Below are positions 37,605-51,326 of a stretch of DNA of 64,000 nucleotides, piece after piece; the stretch's first letter is position 1, and each line of letters starts with the position of its first letter. Below the pieces are notes generated by a model, which worked only from the letters and a program-made list of their open reading frames with translations, made no database searches and had not been told where the DNA came from. This DNA is from an uncultured Methanobrevibacter sp. (GTDB taxonomy: Archaea > Methanobacteriota > Methanobacteria > Methanobacteriales > Methanobacteriaceae). Both the position numbers and the translations under genes were made by a program. Location: the NCBI RefSeq assembly GCF_902784195.1, contig NZ_CACZTX010000007.1:1-64000 (forward strand). The letters are read 5' to 3'.

Positions 37605-37752
37605 TTTTTATCACTAAGATTATATATTTTTGTTCGTATTAATAAAGATATTTAATATTTTCAAGTATTCCTTTGATTTTTATTAAGTTATTTATAATAT
37701 AATGACAAATATAAATAATAATTAAAAATTGATTTTTATTATTGGTGTATTC

Positions 37753-38847
37753 ATGAAATATGATTATTTAATTGTAGGATCAGGTTTATTCGGCTCTGTA
37801 TTTGCATATGAAATGACTAAAAGAGGCAAGAAATGTTTAGTCATTGAAAAGAGAGACCATATTGGAGGAAATGTTTATACTGAAGAAGAATATGGAATAA
37901 ATGTTCATAAGTATGGAGCTCATATATTCCACACAGACAATAAAGAGATTTGGAATTACATCAATCAATTTGCTGACTTTAACCGTTACACAAATTCCCC
38001 TGTGGCTAACTACAAAGGCGAATTATACAACCTTCCTTTCAATATGAACACATTTTATCAGATGTGGGGAGTGAAGACTCCTGAGGAAGCTAAAGCAAAG
38101 ATTGAAGAGCAAAAAAGTGAAGCCAATATCAGTAAACCGAAGAACCTTGAAGAGCAAGCTATTTCCCTTGTCGGACAAGACATCTATGAAAAGCTTGTAA
38201 AAGGATACACAGAAAAGCAGTGGGGAAGAGACTGTACAGATTTGCCTGCTTTCATCATTAAAAGATTACCTGTAAGGTTTACTTTTGACAATAATTACTT
38301 CAATGATTTATATCAAGGAATTCCAATTGGAGGATACACCAAAATAATTGAAAAGATGCTTGAAGGTGTTGAAGTAAGATTGAACACTGATTTCTTTGAT
38401 AATAAGGAAGAGTTTTTATCAATGGCTGATAAGGTTCTCTTTACAGGAATGATTGATCAGTATTATGACTATTGCTTTGGAGAGCTTGAATACAGAGGGC
38501 TTGACTTTGAGTTTGAAACTCTTGATATGGAAAACTATCAGGGAAATGCTGTTATCAATTATACTGATAGGGAAACTCCTTTTACAAGAATAATTGAACA
38601 TAAGCACTTTGAGAATGCTATTTCTGACAAGACTGTTATTACAAGAGAGTATCCTAAAGCATGGAAAAAAGGAGAAGAAGCATATTATCCTATGAATGAT
38701 GAAAGGAATAGTGAACTCTTTGCTAAATATAGAGAATTGGCAGATAAAGAGGATAAGGTTATCTTTGGTGGAAGACTTGGAATGTATCAATACTTTGATA
38801 TGTGGAAAGTCATCGAAGAGGCTTTAAAATTAGCAAATAGTTTATAA
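37753..38847 (+). CDS. glf: UDP-galactopyranose mutase
   Basis: An FAD enzyme that interconverts UDP-galactopyranose and UDP-galactofuranose for glycan synthesis. The 364-residue protein has the FAD motif DYLIVGSGLFGSVFAYE near the N-terminus, KRDHIGGNVYTEEEYGI, and KYGAHIFHTDNKEIW, all characteristic of bacterial-type Glf. ATG 37753 follows GGTGTATTC. It starts a same-strand run of surface-glycan genes with DUF4422 and transferase genes behind it. Confidence 0.93.
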   Translation: MKYDYLIVGSGLFGSVFAYEMTKRGKKCLVIEKRDHIGGNVYTEEEYGINVHKYGAHIFHTDNKEIWNYINQFADFNRYTNSPVANYKGELYNLPFNMNTFYQMWGVKTPEEAKAKIEEQKSEANISKPKNLEEQAISLVGQDIYEKLVKGYTEKQWGRDCTDLPAFIIKRLPVRFTFDNNYFNDLYQGIPIGGYTKIIEKMLEGVEVRLNTDFFDNKEEFLSMADKVLFTGMIDQYYDYCFGELEYRGLDFEFETLDMENYQGNAVINYTDRETPFTRIIEHKHFENAISDKTVITREYPKAWKKGEEAYYPMNDERNSELFAKYRELADKEDKVIFGGRLGMYQYFDMWKVIEEALKLANSL

Positions 38848-38880: not shown

Positions 38881-39672
38881 ATGAAGATTCAAGTTTATGT
38901 AGTATCACATAGTGAAGAAGATATTAGAGATATCGATGCAAATGATGTTTATGTACCTCTTTTTGTAGGAAGGGATGGAAAGGACAACCTTGGTTTTGTC
39001 AGTGATGATACTGGAGACAATATTTCAAACAAAAACTCTTCCTATTGTGAACTGACCGGTTTATACTGGATGTGGAAAAATAGTGATGCAGATATTATTG
39101 GTTTGGTTCATTATAGGCGTTATTTTGCTAATTGGAGATTAGGAAAACGTCTTGAAAGAAAGGATTTGGAAAAGATTTTTGAGGAATATGACATTATTCT
39201 TCCTAAAAAGACAACTGCCCTTTTAGGTTCAGTTTATGAAGATTATGATCATTGGAATTATGCAAAAGACCTTGATTTATGTGAAGAGGTAATCGCTGAA
39301 CAGTGTCCTGAATATCTTGAAAGTTATAAAAAGGTCGTGAATGGTAAGGAACTTTATTACTACAATATGTTTATAGCTAAAAAAGAAGTCATTGGTCCTT
39401 ATTGTGAGTGGGTTTTCCCAATACTTGCTGAAGTTGAAAAAAGAGTTGATATGACTGGATATGATGATTATCAAAAAAGAATTTACGGATTTTTAACAGA
39501 AAGGCTTTTTGATGTTTGGATGGATAAACAGAACCTTAAAGTTAAGGAATCTGATCTTAAATTGAAAGGTTTAAGGTTAATTGTTTATATGTGGTTTGTG
39601 AAAATACCTATTGTCAGATGGGTTTATGTGCATATTTATGCTGGTTTGTTTCATAAAGCTATGAGGCGTTAG
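38881..39672 (+). CDS. DUF4422-type glycosyltransferase
   Basis: A 263-residue protein matching the DUF4422 family linked to capsular polysaccharide synthesis. The YCELTGLYWMWKNSDADIIGLVHYRRYF stretch is the recognisable core. The likely role is transfer of a sugar (possibly galactofuranose, given glf 33 bp upstream) onto a surface glycan. ATG 38881 follows AGGAAGAAAAT. The C-terminus is hydrophobic and may associate with the membrane. Confidence 0.75.
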   Translation: MKIQVYVVSHSEEDIRDIDANDVYVPLFVGRDGKDNLGFVSDDTGDNISNKNSSYCELTGLYWMWKNSDADIIGLVHYRRYFANWRLGKRLERKDLEKIFEEYDIILPKKTTALLGSVYEDYDHWNYAKDLDLCEEVIAEQCPEYLESYKKVVNGKELYYYNMFIAKKEVIGPYCEWVFPILAEVEKRVDMTGYDDYQKRIYGFLTERLFDVWMDKQNLKVKESDLKLKGLRLIVYMWFVKIPIVRWVYVHIYAGLFHKAMRR

Positions 39673-41002: not shown

Positions 41003-42430
41003 ATGAATCAGATAAAAACTATATTTAAAAATGTTAGTTGGGTCACTTTATCTCAAATAGTTACAAATGTTTTTGCATTTTTTTGGACAATCCTCATTGC
41101 AAGATATTTGGGAGTAACACAATATGGGATTCTTTCATTTGTGCTATCTTTAGTAATGATTATTGGAATTGGTGAAGACATAGGTATTACAACATACACC
41201 ACTCGAGAATTAGCACGTAATAGGTCACTCACTCAAAAATTTATAAATAATATTTTGCCAATAAAATTAATCTTATCTTTAATTTTACTAGTATTAACAA
41301 TAGTTTCATTACATCTGTTAGGTTATGATTTATTAACTCTTGAATTAACGTTCATTATATTCTTTGAAACAATATTCTTAACTAATGCTAATTTTTTATC
41401 AGGAGTTTTTCAAGCGCATGAAAACTTAAAGCCAAGTTCTATTGGATCAATAATATGTAGTTCAGTATTGCTTACTTCAACTGTTATAGTGGTGATATTC
41501 GATTTAGGGGTTGTTTGTATAGCTATTTCTTATGTATTAGCGAATTTATGTTTCTTTGCCTATTTATTTAAAAATATTTGGGATGTTTTCGAATTTCCAA
41601 AATTTGATTTTGATTTTGATTTTTGGAGAAAAGCTATTCTAAAATCATTACCCTTCGGTTTAACTATGTTTTTTTATGGTATTTATTTCTCTATTGATGT
41701 TGTTATGATTTCTTGGTTGGCAAATGATTATGCAACTGGATTATATAATGCAGTATATAAAATTATTTCTGTATTTTCAGCATTTTATTTAGTTTATCAA
41801 TATGTAATTTATCCATTAATGAGTAAATTATATTCTAAAGATCCAAATCTTTTAAAATTAAGTTTTAATCAATCTATTAAATATTCATTATTGATTTTAT
41901 TGCCGATAATTATTGGAATGTATTTCTATTCCCCATATCTAATTGATTTAATTTATACTAATCAGTATGCTTTAGCTTCTCTGGCTATGCAAATACTTAT
42001 TTGGGCAGTCATATTTTTATTTATTAATGGTGTAGCAACATCCTTGCTAAATTCTATAGGAAAAGAATTCAGTGTAACAAAGATTTATATCATAGCTGCC
42101 ATATTTAATGTTGCTTTAAATTATTTATTAATTCCGAAATATACTTATATCGGTGCATCAGTAGCTACTGTGTTAAGTGAAATATTAATTTTAGGATTAA
42201 TGTTGCATGCAATATCTAAAACTGACTATAAGCCAGATGTTTCCTTATTAAAAACAGTTATAAAATTAGTCATTAGTGGATTAATTCTTGCTATTGTTTT
42301 ATATTACATTAATGTTTCATTATGGTTAGCAATCCCAATCGGTCTTGTGGTATATGTATTTGCTTTATTTATCACTCATTCTATTGATGATACTGATAAA
42401 TACATAATCAAAGAGTTACTAAATAGGTAA
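41003..42430 (+). CDS. Polysaccharide flippase (Wzx/MATE-like)
   Basis: A 475-residue membrane protein with about 12-14 transmembrane segments, of the O-antigen flippase superfamily. The start NVSWVTLSQIVTNVFAFFWTILIARYLG and TQYGILSFVLSLVMI match the family. It should export a lipid-linked glycan made by the preceding transferases. AT content is high. It is followed by the GRE-like gene on the same strand after 107 bp; the functional link is unclear. Confidence 0.85.
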   Translation: MNQIKTIFKNVSWVTLSQIVTNVFAFFWTILIARYLGVTQYGILSFVLSLVMIIGIGEDIGITTYTTRELARNRSLTQKFINNILPIKLILSLILLVLTIVSLHLLGYDLLTLELTFIIFFETIFLTNANFLSGVFQAHENLKPSSIGSIICSSVLLTSTVIVVIFDLGVVCIAISYVLANLCFFAYLFKNIWDVFEFPKFDFDFDFWRKAILKSLPFGLTMFFYGIYFSIDVVMISWLANDYATGLYNAVYKIISVFSAFYLVYQYVIYPLMSKLYSKDPNLLKLSFNQSIKYSLLILLPIIIGMYFYSPYLIDLIYTNQYALASLAMQILIWAVIFLFINGVATSLLNSIGKEFSVTKIYIIAAIFNVALNYLLIPKYTYIGASVATVLSEILILGLMLHAISKTDYKPDVSLLKTVIKLVISGLILAIVLYYINVSLWLAIPIGLVVYVFALFITHSIDDTDKYIIKELLNR

Positions 42431-42537: not shown

Positions 42538-44643
42538 ATGGGTCTATTTGATAATATTAAAAGCATTACTGGACGTAAATCAAAGGAAGGTTCAGTCAAT
42601 AGTAGGCCTATCATTTATTCATCCACTTTCAATAAACTAAACAGAAGATTTGGAAATAGGGAAAAGGCAACTTCTTATTTGGCTTCCAATATGCACAATT
42701 TTTACATTTCCTCATCCAAATTTGATAAAGGGATTCAAATAAAGAATCTTTTTAGAAAAGTGGAGATTGATATTCCTAAAGAAGGTTTCATATACTTTTT
42801 AGATGAATTGAAAAATCTAAATTTTGATGGAAAAGTCATAAACGGCATTTCACCGGATTATTCAAAGTTCCTTCACAGTTCCGTTTATACATATAATGAA
42901 TTCTATTTCCATCCCAAATCAGGTCGCGGTTTTGCACGTGATTTAAGTTCTGATTTCATTAAAAACCAATTGGATGCATTGGATGGAATTGAATTATTCA
43001 TTTACAGCATAGTGAAGAAATTAAGAAATTCCAATCATAAGGATAGGGCTAAATTTGCCCGTTACTTTGAAAATATGATTGATGCTCCTGCAGAACACTT
43101 TGAAGAGGCATTGCAGAGAATTCTTTTCTATAATCAAATCTTATGGCAAACTGGCCATTCTGCAATTGGTTTAGGCAGATTGGATAAAATCCTTGAAGAC
43201 TTTTATTTCGATGATCTTAACAGCGGATTTGTCACTCAGGAAGAAGTGTATGAAATTATAAAATCATTCTTAAAGACTTTACATTCTTACCAATGGTATA
43301 AAAGCGATGCATTTATAGGAGATACTGGTCAGGTAATTGTTCTTGGAGGTAAATATGAGGATGAATATGGTGAATATTACTTCTACAATGACTTGACTTA
43401 CATGTTCATTCGTGCCATCGGGGAATTGAAATTATATGAACCTAAAATCGTGCTTAGGATAAGCAATGAAACTCCACGTGATTTAATAGAATTGGCTTTG
43501 GAAACCATCAGCAATGGAATTTCCAATATAATGTTCTCAAATGATGAGATAGTGATAGATAAGATGGTGGAGTTTGGCTATGAAAAGGCAGATGCTACAA
43601 ATTATTCAGTTTCCAAATATTATGGTCCTGCAACTGTGGGAAAAGGATTGGAACAGAATAATATGGCTTGCATTTCATTTTTAAAACCTCTAAATGAGTT
43701 TTTTGATAATGAAACTCCTCAAGTATTGGACATGCTTGACAATTATGGAGAGCTATTTAATTCATATAAGTATTATCTCAAGAAAGAGGTTGAATCTGTA
43801 ATTGAAACATTGGATGATGTTGTATGGAATGAAGATCCTTTGCTTTCATTATTCATTGATGATTGCAATGACAATCAATTGGATATATCCAAGGGTGGAG
43901 CTAAGTACAATCATTATGGAATCACAACAGTTGCACTCGAAAATACTGTAAACAGCTTGTATAACATTAAAAAGCTTGTCTTTGATGATAAGAAATACAC
44001 ATTGACTGACTTAAACAAAATGAGAAAGAATAACTTTAAAAAAGACAAGTATCAGGATGTTTATAAGATTTTAAGGAATATGAAGCCTTGCTTTGGTATG
44101 GATGATAGAGAAATAATCAATATTACAAATGATGTCATTCAATTATTAGAGGACTGTCTAAAAGACTACACTAATGAGTTTGGTGGAAAAATCAAGTTTG
44201 GCCTTACCAATTCTTCTTACATTTTTTCAGATGATGAAATATCTGCTTCATTCGATGGAAGAAAAGTTGTGGAGCCATTCAATCCTTACATTTCTTTAGA
44301 TACTGAAAAGGATTTCACTGAAGTATTGCGCTTTGCATCAAAAATTGATTTGGACGGATGCAAATTCAATGGAAATGTGATTGATCTGATGTTTGCACCT
44401 AATTTCATCAAAAATCATTTTGATGTGCTAACCGATTTTGTCATTTCAAGCATTCAATTAGGATTTTTCCAAATGCAATTTAATTTGGTTAGCAGCAAAA
44501 CTTTAATTGAAGCAAAGGAAGAGCCGGAAACCCATCCAAATTTAATTGTGAAATTTTGCGGATTCAGCACTTACTTTAATGATTTGCCTAAAGGACATCA
44601 GATCTTATTAATCAATAGGGCATTAAAGAATGAAGGCAAATAG
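42538..44643 (+). CDS. Divergent glycyl-radical-enzyme-like protein (PFL superfamily)
   Basis: A 701-residue protein resembling pyruvate formate-lyase-type enzymes. The stretch PAEHFEEALQRILFYNQILW and GHSAIGLGRLDKIL follows the family's barrel start. The candidate thiyl site is C378 in NNMACIS, where active enzymes read GC(V/I)E or CCVS. The candidate glycyl site G675 lies in VKFCGFSTYFNDLP; the usual motif has R-V-x-G-Y, so the flanking R, V and Y are changed to K, F and F. No activase gene is in the window. It may be a new GRE branch or a degenerate relative. A methyltransferase and flavodoxin follow. Confidence 0.65.
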   Translation: MGLFDNIKSITGRKSKEGSVNSRPIIYSSTFNKLNRRFGNREKATSYLASNMHNFYISSSKFDKGIQIKNLFRKVEIDIPKEGFIYFLDELKNLNFDGKVINGISPDYSKFLHSSVYTYNEFYFHPKSGRGFARDLSSDFIKNQLDALDGIELFIYSIVKKLRNSNHKDRAKFARYFENMIDAPAEHFEEALQRILFYNQILWQTGHSAIGLGRLDKILEDFYFDDLNSGFVTQEEVYEIIKSFLKTLHSYQWYKSDAFIGDTGQVIVLGGKYEDEYGEYYFYNDLTYMFIRAIGELKLYEPKIVLRISNETPRDLIELALETISNGISNIMFSNDEIVIDKMVEFGYEKADATNYSVSKYYGPATVGKGLEQNNMACISFLKPLNEFFDNETPQVLDMLDNYGELFNSYKYYLKKEVESVIETLDDVVWNEDPLLSLFIDDCNDNQLDISKGGAKYNHYGITTVALENTVNSLYNIKKLVFDDKKYTLTDLNKMRKNNFKKDKYQDVYKILRNMKPCFGMDDREIINITNDVIQLLEDCLKDYTNEFGGKIKFGLTNSSYIFSDDEISASFDGRKVVEPFNPYISLDTEKDFTEVLRFASKIDLDGCKFNGNVIDLMFAPNFIKNHFDVLTDFVISSIQLGFFQMQFNLVSSKTLIEAKEEPETHPNLIVKFCGFSTYFNDLPKGHQILLINRALKNEGK

Positions 44644-44716
44644 ATTTTAGAAATTTTTTTAGATTAAATAATGATTAATTTTTACTTTTTATAATTATAA
44701 CAATTCAAGTGATTAA

Positions 44717-45952
44717 ATGAGCTATGTTGAAGAGTCTACTGTAATTGATGAAACCATTTATGATTTAATAAATGAAGCATTTGACAATGAGAGAGAATAC
44801 AAGGATGCCAAGTATAGAAATTCCATATTCTCTAAATATAATGACTATTTTGTGAAAACAGATGATGGATCATACAGCATCAAGTCAAAGGAAATAAATC
44901 ATAAAGTCGAAACCCTGCATACATCAACAGGTGCAATCAGTGAATCATTTGAAAAGTTCATAAAGCCATTAAAGCTTGATTATGGTGAAGACATAGCTAT
45001 TCTAGACATCTGTGCAGGACTTGGATACAATTCATCTGCAGCTATTGATGACTTCATGAAAAACAGTGATAGGAATCTTCACATTGACATGCTTGAAATA
45101 TCCAAGCCAACCCTTGCAGCTGGATTGATGGTTCCTTCTCCAATAGAAGCTCATGACATTACCAAAAAGGCAATAGAGCAATCATTAATCGATTGTGGAT
45201 ATGCATCATTGGAACTTGAAAGCACTGAAATTCCATCAAACATTGACTTGAAGATTCATATTGATGATGCAAGGCAAGTCATACAGAAACTCCCTGACAA
45301 GACTTATGATGCAATATTTTTGGATCCTTTCAGTCAAAATATGTCTCCTGAGCTGGTCTCATTAGAATTTTTTAAACAATTTAGAAGAGTCATTAAAGAT
45401 AATGGAATAGTCTGTACATATACTTCATCTTCTCCGGTAAGAATGGCATTTATTGAAGCGGATTTTTATGTATCCTTAGGTCCAATCTTCGGACGTTTTC
45501 AAGGTGGAACATTGGCTTCACCAAATCCTAAGAATCTCACTAAATCACTTCCAAAGAATGATGAGATAAAGATGGCATTGTCTGACGTTGGAATTCCATT
45601 TAGAGATCCAAATCTCAATCTTTCATCACAAGAGATACTTGATAATAGAACTGAAGAAAGACATATTGCACGTCATAACACTAAAATATCATCTGCAGTC
45701 AAGACTCCAATATTTTTAGGCCAAGAGATGGATGACGAGCCACTCAAAAGAAGAGTAGAAAGGAATTTAGCTAAAATGAACATTCCTGGAGTTTTATCTG
45801 AAGAGGCATTATATATTGTAGGGCCTGAAAATGACTATAAAGAGGAATATCTTGAGGATAACAATACCAGAACACGTGTTTTGGAAATGATGAAACGTTT
45901 GGATGAGATTAAAAATAACAGTAAACTCTCTCTTAAGGAAAATGGGGAATGA
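44717..45952 (+). CDS. MnmC-like SAM-dependent methyltransferase
   Basis: A 411-residue Rossmann-fold methyltransferase. SAM-binding DICAGLGYNSSAAID appears near residue 98 and an acidic DMLEISK loop follows. DAIFLDPFSQNMSPELVSLEFF resembles the DUF752/MnmC core that methylates the wobble-uridine side chain of tRNAs, so an RNA target is the best guess. The C-terminal 120 residues (from about 290) are unlike bacterial MnmC. ATG 44717 is preceded by AAGTGATTAA. Its TGA overlaps the next gene's first ATG. Confidence 0.7.
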   Translation: MSYVEESTVIDETIYDLINEAFDNEREYKDAKYRNSIFSKYNDYFVKTDDGSYSIKSKEINHKVETLHTSTGAISESFEKFIKPLKLDYGEDIAILDICAGLGYNSSAAIDDFMKNSDRNLHIDMLEISKPTLAAGLMVPSPIEAHDITKKAIEQSLIDCGYASLELESTEIPSNIDLKIHIDDARQVIQKLPDKTYDAIFLDPFSQNMSPELVSLEFFKQFRRVIKDNGIVCTYTSSSPVRMAFIEADFYVSLGPIFGRFQGGTLASPNPKNLTKSLPKNDEIKMALSDVGIPFRDPNLNLSSQEILDNRTEERHIARHNTKISSAVKTPIFLGQEMDDEPLKRRVERNLAKMNIPGVLSEEALYIVGPENDYKEEYLEDNNTRTRVLEMMKRLDEIKNNSKLSLKENGE

Positions 45953-45957
45953 ATACC

Positions 45958-46485
45958 ATGAAAATAATAATTTATGCGTCTCAATACGGTTCAACAAAGC
46001 AGTATGCTGATGAGTTGTCTAAAAGAACAGGTATTGAAACAGTGGAATACACTGAGATTACAGACATAAATCAGTATGATACAATAGTTTATCTTGGACC
46101 TTTATACGCTGGAAGCGTCATGGGTCTAAAAAAGACCCTAAATAAAATCAGGGATGTTCAAGATAAGAAACTTATCGTTGGAACCGTTGGATTGGCAGAC
46201 CCTAATGATAAAAAGAATAGGGAAGAGATCATGAATGGAATAAAGCAGCAGGTTCATGGATGCATTTATAATAAGGCAAGAGTATATTTCTTGAGAGGTG
46301 CAATAGATTATTCCAATCTTAATCTAAAGCACAAAACAATGATGGCATTTATCCATAGGAAAGTAAAAGGGATGAAGGAAGAGGAAAGGACCGCAGAGAT
46401 AAATGCAGTAATTGAAACATATGGAAAGAATGTCAGTTATATTGATTTTGATACTTTGAATCCAATAATCGATGAAATTCAATAG
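45958..46485 (+). CDS. Flavodoxin-domain protein
   Basis: A protein of about 175 residues with the FMN-binding loop YASQYGSTKQYAD near residues 5-17 and the segment VYLGPLYAGS. It resembles the flavodoxin_5/HemG group. An alternative ATG at 45949 makes an ATGA overlap with the methyltransferase stop; GGGGAA at 45943-45948 is better spaced from 45958. Flavodoxins can feed electrons to radical SAM activases, so a tie to the upstream GRE-like gene is possible but unproven. A 31-bp piece of its 3' end is repeated just downstream. Confidence 0.78.
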   Translation: MKIIIYASQYGSTKQYADELSKRTGIETVEYTEITDINQYDTIVYLGPLYAGSVMGLKKTLNKIRDVQDKKLIVGTVGLADPNDKKNREEIMNGIKQQVHGCIYNKARVYFLRGAIDYSNLNLKHKTMMAFIHRKVKGMKEEERTAEINAVIETYGKNVSYIDFDTLNPIIDEIQ

Positions 46486-49114: not shown

Positions 49115-49385
49115 CTTTATTATTTCAATCTTTTCTTTTTTTATTTTTTAATCTTTTCATATCATTTAAGCTCTTTTTAATATTAACTTTATTTATCATG
49201 TTTGGATATGATCTTTTTATAATCTTTTCAGTTCTTTTTAAATATTAACTTTATTAATAATAACTTACATATACTTAAAGTATACAAATTTAATACATAT
49301 TGCAGATTTTTATTATTTTTTCATTTTAAGATTTTACAGAATTTATTCATAAGATTGTGATAAATTAAATTTTTTGAGGTTAAAC

Positions 49386-51326
49386 ATGACCGAATTTAGA
49401 ATAGTAAGAAGGATAAATCCACGTAATGTAATGGAAGTTCTTAAAAAGGATTTTAAGGATGTATTCACTAAAAATCCAATTGTTGTCTTGACATTGCTGG
49501 CAATTATAATTTTACCTTCTTTATATGCTCTTATAAACATTCAAGCTTGTTGGGACCCTTACGACAATACTGGAAATCTTGAATTTGCAGTTGCCAATTT
49601 GGATAAAGGCGCAACATTTGAGGGTGAAGACCTTAATGTAGGGGACCAATTGGAAGATGAATTGAAAAGAAATGATGATTTTTATTGGACATTTGTAAGT
49701 GAAGAAGACCTGCGGGAGGGGGTTAACAATGGAACGTATTATGCTGGAATAGTCATTCCAAAGAATTTCAGCAGTTCAATCAAATCCATTACATCTGACG
49801 ACCCTCACTCTGCAGAATTGGAATATGTTGTCAATAGGAAATCCAATCCAATGGCTTCAAAATTAAGTGACTCTGCAGCAAGAGCAGTTTACAATAAGAT
49901 CAATGCAAAAATTGTCCAGTTCATTAATGTAGCGGCATACGGAAAATTGGGAGAATTGCAGTCTGCTCTTGCATCAGGTGCAAGCCAAATGTCTTCTGGT
50001 GCTGATCAATTAAGTGCTGGTGCAAGCCAAGTTTCCTCCGGTGCTTCTCAAGTGAAATCCGGTGCAAATGATTTGGAAAAAGGAGCAAGTGACCTTTCAT
50101 CAGGTGCTTCTCAAGTGAAATCCGGTGCAAGCCAAGTTTCTGCTGGCGCTTCTCAAGTGAAATCCGGTGCAAGCCAAGTTTCTGCTGGCGCTTCTCAAGT
50201 GAAATCCGGTTCATCCCAAGTTTCATCATCTGCTGATCAGATTTCAGCAGGCGCTTCTCAAGTGCAGGAATCTGCAAAGCAATTGGATAGTTCAGTTGAT
50301 GAAGGATCATTGCCTGATCAATTAAAGCCGGTTGTACATGGCTCAAAGGAATTAGCTAATGCAAGCTCTGATTTGGCAGGGGCTTCAAGCAGTCTTGCTC
50401 AAGGTTCATCAAAATTAGCCAATAGCTCTGTAGATTTGGCTAATGGAGCTTCAGGTGTAGCTGATGGGGCATCAGGTGTTGCTGATGGCGCTTCACAATT
50501 GGCAAATGGTGGATCTCAATTGGCTGAAGGTTCTGTAAGTTTAGCTGCAGGTTCTGCATTGCTTGCAAATGGCGCTTCTTCCGCATTGTTTTCAGCTTCA
50601 AGCGGTCTTTCAGGTGCTGCAGATTCCCTTTCCAGCATAACTGGTGTGAATGAAAGTGAAGTTGGAGAGTATATTTATTCTCCAGTTGTCTTAAAGGAAA
50701 ATGAATTATATGCTGTTCCAGATTATGGTTCTGAAGTCGCTCCGTTCTATTTGGTTTTATCCATGTGGGTGGGGGCAATTATCACTTGTGTGATGCTTAG
50801 AACTGGCCAGTCAACAGGAACCAAATACACTCCATCTGAAATGTACTTTGGAAAGCTATTGATATTCTTGGTAATGGCAATTTTAGAAACTACTGTGACT
50901 CTTATCGGTGCATTTATATTGGGAATTAAGATGGCCAATCCGTTGCTCTTTGTGCTTTCGGCTTATTTCATTGCCTTGATATTCATGCTGATTTGCTATT
51001 CCTTGATTTCTGCATTAGGTCATATAGGAAAAGGATTAGCTGTAATTTGGCTTGTATTCCAAATTTCAGGTACTGGGGGTATTTATCCTATTCAATTGAT
51101 GGGACAATTCCTTCAAGCAGTCAGCCCATATATGCCAATGACCCATGGAATCACTTTGCTAAGGGAAACCGCATTAGGATTGGTTTGGTCTAATTACATT
51201 CCATCATTCCTGATATTGATAGCTATGGGTGTTATAACCTTGGTTTTAGCATTAGTGATTAAAATGTTTGCAGATAAAAGAGCACATTGGTTTGAAGAAA
51301 AATTAAATGAAACTGATTTGTTTTAA
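49386..51326 (+). CDS. YhgE/Pip-type membrane protein with heptad repeat stalk
   Basis: A 646-residue membrane protein. A transmembrane helix near residue 35-55, an extracellular stretch, then a low-complexity stalk (about 195-400) of seven-residue repeats such as GASQVSS and GASQVKS, and a C-terminal block of about five transmembrane helices starting near 455. This matches the YhgE/Pip (phage infection protein) family, related to ABC-2 type exporters. Function in archaea is unknown. ATG 49386 follows TTTGAGGTT. The coding repeats around 50043-50230 include 42-bp units. Confidence 0.82.
   Translation: MTEFRIVRRINPRNVMEVLKKDFKDVFTKNPIVVLTLLAIIILPSLYALINIQACWDPYDNTGNLEFAVANLDKGATFEGEDLNVGDQLEDELKRNDDFYWTFVSEEDLREGVNNGTYYAGIVIPKNFSSSIKSITSDDPHSAELEYVVNRKSNPMASKLSDSAARAVYNKINAKIVQFINVAAYGKLGELQSALASGASQMSSGADQLSAGASQVSSGASQVKSGANDLEKGASDLSSGASQVKSGASQVSAGASQVKSGASQVSAGASQVKSGSSQVSSSADQISAGASQVQESAKQLDSSVDEGSLPDQLKPVVHGSKELANASSDLAGASSSLAQGSSKLANSSVDLANGASGVADGASGVADGASQLANGGSQLAEGSVSLAAGSALLANGASSALFSASSGLSGAADSLSSITGVNESEVGEYIYSPVVLKENELYAVPDYGSEVAPFYLVLSMWVGAIITCVMLRTGQSTGTKYTPSEMYFGKLLIFLVMAILETTVTLIGAFILGIKMANPLLFVLSAYFIALIFMLICYSLISALGHIGKGLAVIWLVFQISGTGGIYPIQLMGQFLQAVSPYMPMTHGITLLRETALGLVWSNYIPSFLILIAMGVITLVLALVIKMFADKRAHWFEEKLNETDLF
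50043..50230 (+). repeat. 42-bp coding repeats in the stalk
   Basis: The segment GCTTCTCAAGTGAAATCCGG recurs at 50043, 50105, 50147 and 50189. The last three are exactly 42 bp apart, six heptads of codons, so recombination can change stalk length in frame. Confidence 0.85.

Follow-up and report, generated by a model that had tools for sequence, protein, structure and literature searches.

The window, a 64,000-nucleotide stretch of DNA from an uncultured Methanobrevibacter sp., carries three forward-strand reading frames at the positions given in the original prediction. The first (42538–44643) encodes a 701-amino-acid protein with the fold of glycyl-radical enzymes (GREs), the second (44717–45952) a 411-amino-acid MnmC2-like methyltransferase with a Methyltransf_30 match, and the third (45949–46485) a 178-amino-acid protein matching Flavodoxin_5. 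The last two overlap by 4 bases, and an AT-rich gap of 73 bases (44644–44716) separates the first from the second. Upstream of the GRE-fold gene lies a surface-glycan locus with genes for a UDP-galactopyranose mutase-like protein (37729–38847, forward strand; same cluster as the GLF gene at L074:11959-13062), a DUF4422 glycosyltransferase-like protein (38881–39672, forward strand), an acyltransferase and, immediately before the GRE-fold gene, a Wzx-type polysaccharide flippase (41003–42430, forward strand).

By homology, the 701-amino-acid protein is a true member of the glycyl-radical enzyme superfamily, as had been proposed from its sequence. Both its PFL-like barrel (E = 4.7e-68) and its C-terminal Gly_radical domain (E = 1.1e-10) score above the Pfam cut-offs, and the best PDB matches to an AlphaFold model computed with 32 sequences (pLDDT 88, pTM 0.89) are GRE dehydratases (TM 0.75–0.77). 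Among solved structures, PFL2-type GREs are closest to it in sequence, and the NCBIfam GRE models match far under their cut-offs (TIGR01774, 242 bits versus 678). With the PFL2-type dehydratases and C–O lyases that we compared (glycerol dehydratase 1r8w, propanediol dehydratase 5i2g, PflD 8id0 and YbiW 8id7, the last two solved with 1,5-anhydrohexitol-6-phosphates), the protein shares the fold, the cysteine-loop and glycyl-loop hairpins and 21–24% identity; unlike them, it lacks the Cys-x-Glu motif and the glycyl-loop arginine, and its subfamily is about 80–100 residues shorter. A Pfam search of the window genome found no NRDD match on this protein and no second Gly_radical protein, and hence no active GRE paralogue of that family with which it could form a mixed dimer. 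NRDD matches do occur elsewhere in the genome, where a class III ribonucleotide reductase match spans two adjoining reading frames (G000:C6:70563-72229), which may reflect an intein, a frameshift or a genuine split.

A C-x-E motif, with the glutamate two residues past the cysteine, is typical of GRE eliminases and decarboxylases. In an alignment of the window protein with solved GREs, K-Y-Y-G (residues 360–363) stands opposite their G-C-x-E loop, and alignments to these and to its relatives place Y361 at the position of the catalytic cysteine. The cysteine loop (residues 359–364, SKYYGP; 43612–43629, forward strand), which in the model forms a hairpin tip at residues 360–362 between strands 357–359 and 363–365, differs from the SACWEP sequence of the subfamily by A360K, C361Y, W362Y and E363G, so that the glutamate of the motif is missing as well. 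The original prediction had placed the thiyl residue at C378 (43669–43671, forward strand). This cysteine lies 17 residues past the catalytic position, opposite an alanine of the solved GREs, and in the model it sits in the next beta-strand (373–380). It is common to the window protein, L003, L004, L012, L005 and L006, all of one clade, and is replaced by valine or serine in L007 and L008 and by serine in L017 and L027. Alignment, conservation and model thus rule out C378 as the thiyl residue. The predicted glycyl position fared better: G675 is present in the glycyl loop (residues 672–677, KFCGFS versus RVWGFS; 44551–44568, forward strand), a tip between strands 670–673 and 676–679 in the model. 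Compared with the R-V-x-G-[FY] pattern expected of a functional GRE, this loop carries R672K and V673F and keeps G675 and F676; it also carries W674C. Of the three substitutions originally noted (R, V and Y to K, F and F), the first two are therefore real, while F676 is not peculiar to this protein, GF being found throughout the subfamily.

Of 139 genomes searched in the same family, 23 contain GRE relatives. Twelve archaeal relatives have the SACWEP loop, together with RVWGF wherever the C-terminus was covered. Another 23 loci, all bacterial (L074 and L076–L097; ~35–50% identity), came from a pattern search of GTDB genomes; they belong to Bacilli, Lachnospiraceae, Oscillospiraceae, Eggerthellaceae and Synergistota, and every one of them has SACWEP. 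These bacterial genes are surrounded by Wzx, GT2, GLF, DUF4422, LicD, IspD/TarI-like and CDP-glycerol glycerophosphotransferase genes. SACWEP and RVWGF are invariant in 33 relatives and altered in the window clade, and the subfamily as a whole forms one clade distinct from generic PFL2 proteins (support 100/100). The window protein has changed 14 of 81 subfamily-invariant positions, as compared to 0–3 in active members (leave-one-out). Where 11 active archaeal proteins show no variation, its changes are concentrated in the catalytic loops (7/15, versus 20/199 elsewhere; Fisher p = 7.6e-4), with a second changed patch at residues 326–332. The two readings left open at the outset, a new GRE branch or a non-radical relative, appear to apply to different proteins: the first describes the SACWEP parent subfamily, an uncharacterised branch of GREs with an activase of its own, and the second description fits the window protein, its descendant.

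Archaeal SACWEP genes are accompanied, on one or other side, by an adjacent radical SAM gene scoring above the TIGR02494 cut-off; in G028, GRE and activase lie on separate short contigs. The co-occurring activase, for which a search had been suggested, was found in 13 of the 139 family genomes, always together with a GRE, and with SACWEP wherever the loop was readable. In bacteria, 18 loci have an activase inside the DNA examined, and for all three checked among those with none nearby (L083, L086 and L090) it lies elsewhere in the genome. No such activase was found in any of the ten window-clade genomes; several of these are incomplete (62–87%), and the well-assembled ones comprise the window genome (99.8%), G019 (99%, in one contig), G021 (99%), and G018 and G023 (95%). 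The absence of an activase from the window, noted originally, extends to the whole 99.8%-complete genome, which has no TIGR02494 match above the cut-off. Of its sub-threshold matches, the best two were rejected, one being an NrdG2-like protein and the other an AmmeMemoRadiSam-like gene that is broken; most others, judging by the part of the model matched, look like ferredoxin-type Fe-S matches. The AmmeMemoRadiSam-like gene, at a contig end (L038:1-740, G000:C10), is split between frames, the stretch expected to carry CxxxCxxC was not seen, and it may be a pseudogene. In G020, a close relative, the gene order is GRE, activase, methyltransferase, and an activase gene occupies the same place in G017, likewise close; in the window, the 73-base gap is all that is left between GRE and methyltransferase. 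Two further loci showed irregularities: in G031 the activase lies in two overlapping frames beside an intact SACWEP GRE (L047, G031:C23:39994-40765; a frameshift or sequencing error), and in G006 several stops interrupt a GRE gene that lies next to an intact activase gene (L059, G006:C122:10677-12732).

The window protein falls in a clade of ten Methanobrevibacter proteins (support 100/100) nested within the archaeal SACWEP proteins, and the members of this clade are exactly the ten activase-less proteins. Parsimony assigns to it a single loss of the activase and at least three losses of the cysteine: in L006 (NSWGP); in L008 (DSWEP), whose sister L007 retains DCWEP; and in the six-member window group (KYYGP, TYYEP, SFCEP, STLEP and AHLEP). 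Since the activase loss is one event, giving a single independent pair in a pair test, its association with cysteine loss is not statistically independent. Within the window group, L017 (G034) and L027 (G019, a single contig of 2,937,203 bases) stop before the glycine domain. The reading frame is intact over ~700 codons in seven clade members, and intact but split across two contigs in an eighth (G018). Among the GRE relatives catalogued in the same two genomes, L058 (G019:C1:1981724-1983796) and L053 (G034) stop ahead of the glycyl-radical domain at about the same place.

Selection was estimated as dN/dS from pairwise Nei-Gojobori counts; the truncated proteins L017 and L027 stand outside this set because their dS is saturated. 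The window protein, L012 and L003 all have tyrosine at position 361, so that loss of the cysteine most simply predates the differences among them. At a dS of about 0.5, dN/dS is 0.090 between the window protein and L012 and 0.10 between it and L003, and between species it is about 0.1 after cysteine loss, at dS of 0.5–1.1. For the same genome pairs, values were a comparable 0.07–0.09 for the methyltransferase and 0.02 for a neighbouring tRNA-guanine transglycosylase. A test by region gave, for the few codons (26–31) on which the loop values are based, 0.167 in the inactive group versus 0.028 in the active group for the cysteine loop, and 0.114 versus 0.026 for the glycyl loop. All other regions lie at 0.06–0.11 in both groups and are equal within a factor of 1.7. 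Constraint has therefore loosened only in the cysteine and glycyl loops, by a factor of 4 to 6, and is kept elsewhere.

Loss of catalytic residues combined with continued purifying selection is what characterizes a pseudoenzyme, and we accordingly consider the protein at 42538–44643 to be, with a probability of roughly 0.78, a glycyl-radical pseudoenzyme, descended from GREs and predicted to lack radical chemistry. Because the protein is conserved although its radical parts are lost, its role would be one that needs the fold and not the radical. The ancestor may be pictured as a working GRE (SACWEP, RVWGF) with its own radical SAM activase, residing in a surface-glycan locus. The activase gene would have been deleted once, in one Methanobrevibacter clade; with the radical no longer installable, drift could have set in, repeatedly and in parallel, at the cysteine, at the glutamate and in the glycyl loop, and the remaining barrel stayed under strong purifying selection. 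A selectively kept lineage of this kind, preserving in living methanogens the steps by which activase, cysteine and glycine domain were lost from a glycan-locus GRE/activase pair shared with gut bacteria, seems to us a likely account. What the retained barrel does can be suggested only tentatively: binding, in which the protein would still hold the ligand of its ancestor, probably a compound of the sugar or polyol type, appears the most likely role, with that of a scaffold or regulator for the adjoining glycan machinery as an alternative.

The barrel might instead have become a new, non-radical enzyme, in which other residues (e.g. Y361-Y362) would perform acid-base or transferase chemistry. 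Strong selection on the whole protein would fit such a function, as would the conserved positions near 326–332 that changed along with the loop. However, the loop varies within the clade (KYYGP, TYYEP, SFCEP, NSWGP, DSWEP, STLEP, AHLEP) and, within the window group, changes more rapidly than other parts of the protein, unlike a new active site, which makes this alternative unlikely.

Less probable still is a protein that remains a radical enzyme, with the NrdG2-like protein encoded in the window genome (G000:C8) activating G675 and with C378 or C674 substituting for the thiyl cysteine. The glycine is indeed retained, C378 is shared by six clade members, and seven of the eight members with a glycine domain have C674. 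The preservation of G675 and the following F-S in all eight counts against a radical-less reading, as does, for the clade, the retention of C361-x-E363 in L005 and L007. However, the cysteine of known GREs stands at the loop tip aligned to Y361 and C378 in the strand beyond it, Glu363 is lost too, L008 in the same clade has neither C361 nor C378, and L017 and L027 lack the entire glycine domain. GRE activases are, moreover, normally specific to their own GRE. A PflB variant lacking its cysteines still gains the radical in vivo when its activase is present (PMC12338860). By analogy, the window protein could in principle carry a glycyl radical that does no chemistry, for which it would need an activase.

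That the gene is a pseudogene in decay is very improbable: its catalytic residues are gone, and the G006 relative, outside the clade, is a plain pseudogene with stops, but seven complete frames plus that of G018 are intact, and dN/dS stayed near 0.1 after the cysteine was lost, which refutes decay unless the rates are grossly in error. An assembly or binning artefact, or a sequencing error in the loop, can practically be dismissed, since although some relatives come from draft metagenome bins, four independent window-group genomes and the single-contig G019 show identical or similar losses.

Two known systems resemble the predicted pseudoenzyme in part. GrcA, a stand-alone glycine domain that repairs active PFL, weakly matches the C-terminal glycine domain of the window protein; in contrast to GrcA, the window protein keeps the barrel, and two members of its clade have lost the glycine domain. 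The PflB C418A/C419A laboratory variant (PMC12338860) is, like the window protein, a GRE without catalytic cysteines, but it is engineered and has its activase, whereas the window protein is natural, conserved and activase-less. In one open-access library, which lacks most subscription papers, we found no report of a GRE in polysaccharide loci or of a GRE pseudoenzyme.

GREs are defined by their radical, and a conserved member without the cysteine, the glutamate and an activase, with sisters that lack the glycine domain, suggests that the fold lends itself to reuse in the absence of the radical. An oxygen-sensitive radical enzyme thus seems to have turned into a non-radical protein in a rumen-type methanogen, and the clade provides naturally occurring stages in which to test how the parts of the superfamily depend on one another. 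Such genes of rumen methanogens should not be annotated as pyruvate formate-lyase. The presence of the parent GRE and its activase in polysaccharide loci of gut bacteria and archaea suggests, in addition, that anaerobic radical chemistry takes part in glycan assembly.

The two genes downstream of the GRE-fold gene belong to the families of MnmC2 (3vyw) and Flavodoxin_5. The methyltransferase is functionally unlinked to the GRE: it occurs in 125 of the 139 family genomes, as compared to 23 with a GRE, a distribution independent enough to rule it out as a partner, and in two genera (g6 and g9) it is encoded at another place in the genome than the GRE. The earlier suggestion that the flavodoxin donates electrons to an activase is unsupported because no activase was found, and comparison among the sampled loci indicates that it is probably a neighbour rather than a partner. 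Upstream, the flippases of the window, G024 and G018 are far more divergent (dN 0.24–0.36) than the GRE-fold proteins (dN 0.05–0.06), and the retained function is therefore probably tied to no single repeat-unit structure. Further downstream, the window encodes a predicted membrane protein (49374–51326) whose middle part contains an extended stretch of degenerate SGASQV-type repeats.
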